Below, piece after piece: positions 2,410 to 4,728 of a stretch of DNA of 10,122 nucleotides. Source of the stretch: Gemmatimonadota bacterium (GTDB taxonomy: Bacteria > GCA-2686955). The DNA is taken from positions 1 to 10,122 of the forward strand of contig NYZA01000128.1 of NCBI GenBank assembly GCA_002686955.1, written 5' to 3'. Below the pieces are notes generated by a model. It worked only from the letters and a program-made list of their open reading frames with translations, did no database searches and was not told where the DNA came from. Each line of letters opens with the position of its first letter. Within the stretch, counting starts at the first letter, position 1. The translations under genes were made by a program, and so were the position numbers.

Positions 2410-2500
2410 CCCCCCTCCGGTCGATCGGTGAGTTCCGAAATCACCGGTGTAGCAGCGCTACGTCGCGGATTTCGGGGCTTGCCGATCGGCCGGAGATGGG
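2410..2500 (+). ncRNA. Candidate structured RNA: 91-nt collinear hairpin
   Basis: Bases 2410-2453 pair with 2457-2500 around the 3-nt loop AGC with no bulges. In the core (2417-2453 with 2457-2493), 28 positions are Watson-Crick, 7 are G-U wobbles if transcribed as + strand RNA, and only 2 (2443/2467 and 2444/2466) mismatch. Clear perfect blocks are CCGAAATC (2435-2442) with GATTTCGG (2468-2475), GTAGC with GCTAC around the loop, and CCGGTCGATCGG (2417-2428) with CCGATCGGCCGG (2482-2493, one wobble). The stem continues less perfectly with TC/GA and CCC/GGG to 2410/2500. The wobbles would be A-C mismatches in the opposite-strand RNA and G-T mismatches in a DNA cruciform, so + strand RNA is the best-fitting form. 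No known RNA family was recognised. It could also be a hairpin of a small mobile element. The pairing is seen directly; transcription is inferred. Confidence 0.45.
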
Positions 2501-2556: not shown

Positions 2557-2658
2557 CTCCCGGTTCCCGATGCAGAGATCCAACTTGTGACGCAGGGCAC
2601 CGGCGGATCCTCTCTTCCCGGCGTCGGAGATGGGCCCGTCCGCTCGTGCCCTTCGTCC

Positions 2659-2711
2659 CGCCCTCGCCGGCGCCCCGACCGCACGGGGCCCGCGGCGAAC
2701 AACCGAGGGCG
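2659..2711 (+). other. Nested GC-rich stem-loop
   Basis: An outer 8-bp stem, CGCCCTCG (2659-2666) with CGAGGGCG (2704-2711), encloses a perfect 6-bp hairpin, GCCCCG (2672-2677) with CGGGGC (2684-2689), loop ACCGCA. The inner part may extend by CGCCG/CGGCG as an alternative to the outer two base pairs. The very high GC makes such pairings more likely by chance than usual, but the nested arrangement is notable next to the 2410-2500 hairpin. Confidence 0.35.
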
Positions 2712-2742
2712 AGCTCAAGCCGGCGAAGACCCTATGTCGAGA

Positions 2743-2781
2743 CGTCGGTTCGGCGGCACCGCTCCGCCAACATGGGCGACG
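2743..2781 (+). other. Nested stem-loop before repeat copy C
   Basis: CGTCG (2743-2747) pairs with CGACG (2777-2781). Inside it, GTT-c-GGCGG (2748-2756) pairs with CCGCCAAC (2764-2771) with one bulged C and the 7-nt loop CACCGCT. The 5-nt ATGGG (2772-2776) is unpaired on the right arm. This is the third strong stem-loop of the 2410-2781 stretch and is compatible with one long folded transcript. Confidence 0.35.
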
Positions 2782-2811
2782 CCGCCAACCCCTCGCGACG
2801 AAAGTTGGTGA

Positions 2812-2868
2812 GAAATGCGGCCTAGCTGCGAATGGCGGGGACCAGCTTCGCAGTGCGCAGTCCCCCCC
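2812..2868 (+). repeat. Dispersed intergenic repeat, copy C (short)
   Basis: This copy shares GGCCTAGCTGCGAATGGCGG (2819-2838) with the reverse complement of the 2000-2124 copy (one change in that block), then GACCAG, and ends AGTCCCCCCC (2859-2868). It is in the same orientation as the 199-312 copy and opposite to the copies at 2000 and 2218. Only the 3' half is clear; the upstream part has diverged or is missing. GGGGAC (2836-2841) can pair with GTCCCC (2860-2865), and a GAC...GTC pair in the equivalent place is also possible in copies A and D. Confidence 0.65.
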
Positions 2869-2895
2869 TTCTTCTGAATTCTCCATTATCCGCGG

Positions 2896-2927
2896 GTCGC
2901 CGACACTTGATCGGCGACTTCGGTTTT
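2896..2927 (+). terminator. Possible intrinsic terminator
   Basis: A perfect 8-bp stem, GTCGCCGA (2896-2903) with TCGGCGAC (2911-2918), has the 7-nt loop CACTTGA and is followed by TTCGGTTTT (2919-2927). The U-tract is interrupted by CGG, so termination may be weak. The T-rich side exists only for + strand transcription. It would end any + strand transcript of the repeat/hairpin gap before pgpA. Confidence 0.45.
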
Positions 2928-2954
2928 GCGAGGGGGCGGGCGGCGCTCTACTCT
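2926..2954 (+). promoter_or_regulatory. Weak sigma70-like promoter candidate for pgpA
   Basis: TTGCGA (2926-2931) and TACTCT (2949-2954) are 17 bp apart. This matches the -35 and -10 consensus at 4 and 3 of 6 positions. It lies just after the terminator-like hairpin and 58 bp before the pgpA start, a sensible position, but the -10 match is poor and chance is a real possibility. Confidence 0.2.
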
Positions 2955-3001
2955 CGCCATTGGTGTCCTTATCGATCGCGCGCCCGCGCGGGTGCTTCAT
3001 C

Positions 3002-3007
3002 AGGAGG
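3002..3007 (+). promoter_or_regulatory. Strong Shine-Dalgarno that decides the pgpA start
   Basis: AGGAGG at 3002-3007 is a perfect ribosome binding core 4 nt before the in-frame TTG at 3012. No ATG or GTG in this frame is suitably placed, so this site is the main reason for the TTG start call. Confidence 0.7.
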
Positions 3008-3011
3008 CGAA

Positions 3012-3482
3012 TTGGATCCTGTTTCCGGCACGAACCCCTCCCCGGCCGAGCGCCTCGCCACTCTCGGGGGCGTGGGCCGACTCAAGCCCGCTCCTGGGAC
3101 CTGGGGCACGGCTCTTGCTGCCGGCGTTCTCTGGCTCCTGCTTCCCGAGGGGGGGCTGATCGCGGCGATGGTGGCCCTGCTCCTCTTCGTCGTCGCGGTG
3201 CCGATCTGCGCGGTGGCCGAGCATGAGTCCCGGGAGCGAGACCCTGGCTGGATCGTGCTCGATGAGGCGGTTGGAATGGCCGTGGCCGTGGTGGCTCTGC
3301 CGCACTCCCCGGCTCCTTGGCTCGTCGCCTTCTTGGCCTTTCGAGCCTTCGACATAGCCAAACCTCTTGGCATCGATCGCGCCCAGGGGCTCCCCGGCGG
3401 GTTGGGCGTGGTTGCCGACGATGCTCTCGCCGGACTCTACGCGAATCTGCTCACCCATGTGCTCCTCATCATCTTCAACTGA
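3012..3482 (+). CDS. pgpA: Phosphatidylglycerophosphatase A
   Basis: Membrane phosphatase (156 aa from this start, close to the family's usual length) that converts phosphatidylglycerophosphate to phosphatidylglycerol, the step after PgsA. Conserved PgpA blocks are present in order: GVGRLKPAPGTWGT (20-33), a hydrophobic segment (34-66), ERDPGWIVLDEAVGM (75-89) with acidic D84-E85, a second hydrophobic segment (90-110), FRAFDIAKPLGI (110-121) and GGLGVVADDALAGLYANL (129-146) with D136-D137. The acidic pairs are the expected metal-binding residues. The start is TTG at 3012 behind AGGAGG; the frame is open further upstream but shows no family similarity there. The 3' end overlaps the likely cinA start by 26 nt. 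Separation from pgsA by the repeat-rich gap is unusual for an otherwise compact region. Confidence 0.92.
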   Translation: MDPVSGTNPSPAERLATLGGVGRLKPAPGTWGTALAAGVLWLLLPEGGLIAAMVALLLFVVAVPICAVAEHESRERDPGWIVLDEAVGMAVAVVALPHSPAPWLVAFLAFRAFDIAKPLGIDRAQGLPGGLGVVADDALAGLYANLLTHVLLIIFN

Positions 3483-4728
3483 GCTCGCCACGGGGCCAGC
3501 CCGCCGAAACGCCCGGATCGTGGCGGTGGGCGACGAGCTGACTTGTGGGTCACGGATCGACACGAACTCGGCGGAGCTGGGTCGGGCGCTGACCACATGG
3601 GGGTATCGAACGCTCGGCTCGCGCAGTGTCGGTGACGAGATCGAGCGGATCGTCGCGGCGATCGAAGAGGCGGTGGCGGAGGCCGATGTCGTTTTGGTGA
3701 CTGGAGGGCTCGGGCCGACACCCGACGACCGTACGCGGGAGGCGCTGGCGGCTTGGTCGGGGGGGGCGCTGGAGGAAGATCCGGCGGTCGTGGACTGGCT
3801 GAGGGAGCTCTTTCGGCAATTCGGCCGGCCGATGGCGGAGTCGAATCGACGGCAGGCGATGGTGCCGAGGGGGATGCGTCCGATTCTGAATCCGGCGGGC
3901 ACGGCGCCGGCGCTGGTGGGGGAACGCGAGGGAACACTGCTGATCTCGTTGCCGGGGGTGCCGAGTGAGGTGAGGGCTTTCTTGGGCGGGGAGGTTGGCG
4001 AGGTCTTGCGGGCTGGAAGTGGAGTGGCTCCGCTCGAGGTGGCGCGTCTGCTCACGACCGGGATTACGGAATCGAAGCTCGCGGATCTTGTGGGGGAGCT
4101 ACCGGCGGACCCCGCGCGGTTGGCCTTTTTGCCGGCGCTGGGCGGGGTAGAGCTGGTCCTGAGCGCTCCGAGCGCGGCCGTGCTCGAGGGGGCGAGGGGG
4201 GCGCTTCGTGAGCGCTTGGGCGATCTGGTCTACTCCGAAGACGGGGAACGGCTCGAAGAGGTCGTGGGGCGGATGCTGGTCGATGCGGGGGCGACGGTGG
4301 CGGTGGCCGAGTCGTGCACCGGAGGGCTGGCGCTCAGTCGACTCACCGACGTGCCGGGGGCGTCTCGCTACGTTCTCGAGGGGGTCGTGACCTACTCGAA
4401 TGAAGCGAAGACGCGGATTCTCGGGGTGGAGGCGGAAACTCTGAAGGCGGAGGGAGCGGTGAGTGAGGCCGTCGCCCGGAAGATGGCGGAAGGGGTGAGA
4501 GAGATTTCGGGGGCGAGCTTTGGGCTCGCATCGACGGGGATCGCGGGGCCGGCTGGGGGAACGGAAGAGAAGCCTGTGGGGACGGTGTGGATCGCGATCG
4601 CCGGGGGGGATGGGACCGAGGCTCGGCGTGTGCGGATTCCGGGCGATCGCGGTGTGATCAAGTTCAGGGCCGCGCAGGCGTTGATCGACGGGCTGCGGCG
4701 CCTTCTGGGTCGCGGCCGAAGCCCGTGA
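3457..4728 (+). CDS. cinA: CinA family protein (CinA N-domain plus PncC-type C-domain)
   Basis: Full-length CinA (423 aa). The N-terminal MoaB-like domain starts at ARIVAVGDELTCGSRIDTNS (19-38) and includes VTGGLGPTPDDRTREAL (81-97) and LISLPGVPSEV (162-172). In some bacteria this domain has ADP-ribose/NMN-related pyrophosphatase activity. The C-terminal domain (about 265-415) is of the PncC nicotinamide-nucleotide amidase type: VAESCTGG (283-290) carries the presumed catalytic Ser286, followed by GASRYVLEGVVTYSNEAK (301-318) and STGIAGPAGG (359-368). It recycles NMN from NAD use, and cinA is classically linked to competence and often precedes recA, as here. The ATG at 3457 has no clear Shine-Dalgarno and adds about 18 residues before the conserved start, but the next in-frame start (GTG 3520) would cut the first beta strand. 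It probably relies on coupling with pgpA. An 8-G run at 3759-3766 lies in the N-domain. Confidence 0.93.
   Translation: MCSSSSSTELATGPARRNARIVAVGDELTCGSRIDTNSAELGRALTTWGYRTLGSRSVGDEIERIVAAIEEAVAEADVVLVTGGLGPTPDDRTREALAAWSGGALEEDPAVVDWLRELFRQFGRPMAESNRRQAMVPRGMRPILNPAGTAPALVGEREGTLLISLPGVPSEVRAFLGGEVGEVLRAGSGVAPLEVARLLTTGITESKLADLVGELPADPARLAFLPALGGVELVLSAPSAAVLEGARGALRERLGDLVYSEDGERLEEVVGRMLVDAGATVAVAESCTGGLALSRLTDVPGASRYVLEGVVTYSNEAKTRILGVEAETLKAEGAVSEAVARKMAEGVREISGASFGLASTGIAGPAGGTEEKPVGTVWIAIAGGDGTEARRVRIPGDRGVIKFRAAQALIDGLRRLLGRGRSP

Follow-up and report, generated by a model that had tools for sequence, protein, structure and literature searches.

What is the strong hairpin that lies in a gene-free gap of this Gemmatimonadota genome, and why does it fold better on one strand than on the other? 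The window, i.e. the whole stretch of 10,122 nucleotides analysed here (contig C128), encodes what we take from the translations to be ybaB, recR and pgsA, then, beyond the gap, pgpA, cinA, recA, alaS and others. As the first-pass annotation had stated, the hairpin sits between genes: pgsA ends at 1972 and the next gene starts at about 3010. The hairpin itself, reported at 2410-2500, is real according to both RNAfold and its pair list, which give 37 bp including seven G-U pairs. Its core (2415-2495, + strand) consists of 28 bp, a 2x2 internal loop, 9 bp and a 3-nt loop, running from pair 2415-2495 to pair 2453-2457, and the G-U pairs are 2421-2489, 2429-2481, 2430-2480, 2433-2477, 2434-2476, 2447-2463 and 2448-2462. 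When both strands of 2400-2510 were folded against shuffled controls, a comparison the annotation had advised, the + strand reached -81.3 kcal/mol (z -8.4, with 0 of 200 shuffles as good) and the - strand -67.2 kcal/mol (z -7.1). At the Rfam gathering score the window had no match; the annotation had not recognised the hairpin as RNase P, tmRNA, SRP or 6S RNA.

The best explanation, to which we assign a probability of about 0.78, is that the hairpin is the remnant of a 179-bp non-autonomous IS-type MITE carrying a one-strand-folded module, with an IS5-like mobilisation and a benefit of the fold that we infer. A profile of the element aligns to 2416-2545 on the + strand (nhmmer, E 8e-34) and covers element positions 51-179, so that the left end and the left outer arm are absent; covariance model R1 matches at 2406-2505. 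Within this truncated copy, copy alignment and the cross-phylum motif place the apical module at 2438-2472 (+ strand), as a diverged local variant of that motif (AAACCGGAGGCGTAGC...GCTACGTCGAGGATTT). The 3' arm (2491-2514, + strand) contains the family's two AGATG tandem-G.A sites (2494 and 2505), at positions conserved in relatives. It leads into the right terminal inverted repeat (2514-2545, + strand), which is delimited by copy alignment and the element profile and ends in GGGGACCC. Judging from the target-duplication statistics of full-length copies, the adjoining ATA (2546-2548) is the probable right half of a 3-bp target duplication whose left half has been lost. Part of another dispersed repeat (2202-2418; 86-90% matches on contigs C139, C171, C55, C96 and C188) abuts and truncates the MITE, and the right-hand continuation of that repeat follows at 2549-2746 (89% match on C139). 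This second repeat is GC-rich, and the MITE seems to be inserted into it. Likely, the MITE first entered the other repeat and then suffered a deletion at a TCC microhomology; having lost its left end, the window copy should be immobile. Besides, inverted repeat arms of the GGGGGGACTG... type flank the gap at 1996-2073 and 2819-2867 (78% complementary) and also occur at 239-316 upstream of ybaB, possibly as the ends of another small element family.

A search of the own genome located about 40 copies at 75-95% identity, and almost every intact copy aligned over the 95-nt core without gaps; model R1 found about 55 long copies. These numbers are lower bounds, as many contigs end inside an element copy (e.g. 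C266, C156, C244, C62, C138, C158). The repeat fragments the assembly. Most of the other copies extend outward into a second arm pair, which makes up the 179-bp element GGGTCCGCGCAAGAATAACTTGTCAT...ATGACAAGTTATTCTTGCGCGGACCC. Its terminal inverted repeats span 26-30 bp, and the end sequence occurs 97 times in the genome when up to three mismatches are allowed, compared with 0 for the reversed control. A 3-bp target duplication borders 22 of 42 full-length copies (permutation mean 7, maximum 14 over 1000), their commonest left flanks being TAA, TTA, TCA or AAA and the target mostly TNA. Short (below about 500 bp), non-coding, multi-copy and accompanied by no linked recurring gene, with terminal inverted repeats and with target duplications as tested in the own genome, the repeat is a MITE by every test run. 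The suggestion that the hairpin might belong to a small non-autonomous element was thus borne out.

About 20 further places hold a hairpin-less short form of about 87 bp (e.g. L127 225-311, L130 2557-2643, L139 2496-2582), which apparently arose by deletion between AGATGTG repeats and may either move on its own or form in place at each site; the existence of such forms may mean that the core is dispensable for movement. A second, diverged subfamily of three to four copies (L123, L124 and L125, on own-genome contigs C16, C14 and C214) has ends GGGTCCGGAAAGAAACAAACGTGTC and the same apical motif on different stems. At L137, an element at 2575-3993, whose 362-aa product we take from its translation to be an IS110-like transposase, begins within a MITE hairpin, just past position 102 of the MITE.

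As to what moves the MITE, neither an autonomous partner nor a transposase with the MITE ends was found in its own genome, in an assembly that is 84.5% complete and split into 270 contigs, many of them broken inside the repeat. The PF01609 matches of the own genome were rejected as partners, one being an IS701-type element with other ends and one a fragment. Among the open reading frames near 120 motif places, no transposase or partner gene recurred. A MITE from Selenomonas (162 bp, with TA on both sides) terminates in TAGGGCGTGTT, as does a deleted element of the IS5 family. The Selenomonas ruminantium locus L276 carries, at 1428-2093, an internally deleted element of the IS5 family that ends in TAGGGCGTGTT like the local MITE. 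This Selenomonas element is the only one with a match to NF033580 (E 1.4e-26), which stays below the curated cut-off because the gene is a fragment. We propose that the 179-bp element would be moved in trans by an IS5-like DDE transposase.

Why the fold favours one strand can be asked of the copies themselves. A palindrome that has no function as a single strand should contain as many G-U as A-C opposites, because each becomes the other on the complement. Under a pairing scheme that treats the two alike, the inner hairpins of 51 own copies showed 314 G-U to 18 A-C, and the outer ends (30 nt) of the same copies 56 to 38. Counted by site, variants present in at least three copies gave 20:2 for the inner hairpin (p 1e-4) and 9:6 for the outer ends (p 0.6); when variants from even single copies were included, the inner excess dropped to 36:17. 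As shared variants are polarised and rare ones much less so, most of the polarity belongs to the source lineages, and changes accumulated after insertion look closer to neutral. For the same reason we place a putative action of the inner module in source copies, where, as a folded single strand, it might help the element to multiply or to be tolerated. Double changes that keep a pair exceeded those in 500 of 500 shuffles, in cell counts that overstate independent events since the copies are related.

Beyond the own genome, similar repeats in at least eight other bacterial groups carry the apical motif CCGGAGGNRTAG...CTAYNTCGAGGATT, where it tops covarying stems and is joined to different outer ends. 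A scan for the pattern CCGGAGGNRTAGN{5,7}CTAYNTCGAGGATT in one genome per species (84,980 species) located it at no fewer than 113 loci in Myxococcales, Selenomonas/Veillonellaceae, Desulfobacterota, Fermentibacteria, Phycisphaerae, Acidobacteria, Nitrospira and Bdellovibrionales. In a set of 386 diverse genomes, three including the own one had the motif and control matches numbered 0, so its distribution is patchy. Across 44 representatives with flanks less than 75% alike, the + strand folded better in all 44, an advantage that stems in part from the motif's built-in G-U. The four pairs directly below the motif each occur in three or four Watson-Crick combinations. In the cross-phylum alignment, 53 cells carried double changes vs 12.3 in shuffles, and the covariation score was 0.302 vs 0.096; counted by pair, double changes (5 pairs) were not above the level of the shuffles (4.5). 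Conserved in the relatives are the internal loops flanking a CC/GG pair step, as well as tandem G.A mismatches of the form AGAT/AGAT. Their 3' arm has AGATG at offsets 21-23 and again at 32-33, a spacing of roughly one helical turn. In-helix G-U:A-C ratios were 98:25 in Desulfobacterota and 151:12 in the remaining groups; Myxococcales copies showed no such polarity (28:30). G.A exceeded C.T in all groups.

With a cross-phylum model (R2), each of 13 genomes had between 3 and 149 matches, the complete genome of Desulfosarcina alkanivorans PL12 having 81; these are rough counts, capped at 150 scored candidates and possibly including both strands. Most hosts are MAGs, and gene calls follow a simple codon-usage or longest-frame heuristic. 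At loci L322-L361 (Desulfosarcina alkanivorans and Deltaproteobacteria MAG100), conserved CAAGGCCGCAG and CGAGAACGCC form a large internal loop below a variable stem, and the outer stems differ among copies and are mostly still paired. Since the outer ends differ between groups, the core has apparently been combined with different ends, or else the ends have changed beyond recognition. Elements at 20 external or own loci had no Rfam match at the gathering score, and a permissive search gave low-scoring matches only, mostly to eukaryotic miRNA hairpins. Phages, plasmids and viral contigs yielded no match, and a literature search on the motif and on strand-polarised folds in MITEs returned no paper.

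The first-pass annotation had read the G-U polarity as a fold kept in one strand, and had named missing compensatory changes, lost pairing in homologues and absence elsewhere as signs to the contrary. About 50 copies with unpolarised outer ends as a control, compensatory changes and divergent relatives in other phyla support that reading, and each of these checks spoke for the fold. Covarying pairs and strand-polarised G-U, the hallmarks asked of a structured RNA, are both present, and folded single-stranded DNA would give the same signal. The fold is conserved in one strand, as RNA or as single-stranded DNA; its function we only infer.

Placement relative to genes bears on these two forms. 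Own-genome copies have a sense upstream gene in 23 cases and an antisense one in 21, i.e. insertions show no orientation bias towards genes, and edges within 6 nt of a stop codon number five on the left and nine on the right. Copies in Desulfobacterota and Myxococcales have the stop codon of an antisense gene at their right edge (right:left 26:4, 13:0 and 16:2), and the mRNA of that gene carries the poorly folding strand. This antisense placement counts against the element serving as an mRNA 3' hairpin and leaves room for single-stranded DNA or for the purging of harmful orientations.

As to the folded strand itself, read-through RNA is the most likely candidate, at what we would call an even bet, and single-stranded DNA comes close behind, somewhat short of even. 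Our slight lean towards RNA comes from the asymmetric conserved internal loops and the wide tolerance of G-U, both typical of RNA. G.T and tandem G.A pairs stabilise single-stranded DNA, too, and DNA parameters likewise favour the + strand (-38.8 vs -31.7). One may go further and regard single-stranded DNA as the functional form, the + strand folding during replication, repair or transfer to become the substrate of a strand-selective recombinase or transposase, as the attC bottom strand does. The stop-codon placement with an antisense folding strand has the geometry of attC sites, and the indifference of the own-genome copies to the orientation of transcription fits as well. However, the attC core boxes R'' (RYYYAAC) and R' (GTTRRRY), which mark the two ends of such sites, were found on either strand in 0 of 54 own and 1 of 32 Desulfobacterota copies, so that membership in this class of sites was rejected; a linked recombinase gene was not seen, and the own-genome copies carry the marks of DDE transposition, namely inverted ends and target duplications. 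We therefore consider this form conceivable and rather doubtful.

Two further accounts fare worse. The core might be a neutral passenger of an ordinary MITE palindrome, its polarity reflecting a few founders multiplied by transposition; the copies do go back to a small number of sources, the family has several fixed G-U pairs, and the excess weakens once single-copy variants are admitted. Yet the outer ends of the same copies are unpolarised next to a strong site-level excess in the inner hairpin, other groups show polarity of their own, and the apical motif and loops are conserved across phyla on covarying stems, which already makes such passive descent improbable. The other account, a locus-specific structured small RNA gene as the first-pass annotation had entertained, draws on the strong fold and the strand polarity and is effectively refuted. 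What stands at this locus is a truncated MITE copy cut short by another repeat, and the presence of over 50 copies, which have inverted ends and target duplications, rules out a single-copy RNA gene. The sequence is also missing from 59 other genomes, among them G001 of the same family: R1 found no match in any of them, and a DNA similarity search with the gap gave chance-level matches only.

The remnant of a MITE with a one-strand-folded module thus remains our preferred reading, and it raises the matter of what the fold is for. MITE hairpins are usually seen as passive palindromes. A tip that is shared across phyla and folds well in one strand only suggests a shared job. As the one-strand fold is kept, the outer ends are unpolarised and the tip is common to several phyla, something probably recognises the hairpin. 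Tentatively, and with the balance slightly against it, we suggest a transferable, one-strand-folded hairpin module that rides mobile elements with different ends across phyla, engages a widely conserved factor and is sometimes placed at gene ends. Candidates for this factor may include an RNA-binding protein, a polymerase, the ribosome or a strand-selective DNA enzyme. If true, this would represent a new class of mobile structured nucleic acid. Desulfosarcina alkanivorans PL12, an isolate with a complete genome, makes transcription, protein binding and stop-codon insertion directly testable. A scan confined to a single genome can mistake such repeats for new small RNA genes.

Several known systems share individual traits with the element. 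Integron attC sites are imperfect palindromes with one strand preferred for folding (Ref. PMC2727003), and the Desulfobacterota and Myxococcales copies resemble them in lying directly after stop codons with an antisense folding strand. However, attC sites lack sequence conservation (Ref. PMC2727003), whereas the apical sequence of the element is conserved, and no cassette array was seen. MITEs derived from the IS5 family are likewise small, with inverted ends and 3-bp TNA or TA target sites, yet no IS5 transposase with the present ends was found in the own genome and the core is not explained as an IS5 remnant. Some MITEs are known to give transcripts that fold stably and are processed by RNase III, and Correia and ERIC elements are dispersed palindromes whose transcripts fold and can be cut by RNase III or alter mRNA levels (Ref. 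PMC10969869). They differ in sequence and ends, and the text searched in this MITE review describes no apical motif conserved across phyla for them. The BOX elements of Streptococcus pneumoniae, composed of boxA-boxB-boxC, are MITEs with inverted ends, an optional inner folded module and a predicted RNA fold of the whole element, and in S. suis the same inner module sits between different outer modules (Ref. PMC3049150). While BOX varies in length and hardly occurs outside the streptococci (Ref. PMC3049150), the core described here is near-constant in length in its own genome, polarised to one strand and topped by an apical motif common to many phyla. With its optional inner module, the pneumococcal BOX is nevertheless the nearest architecture.
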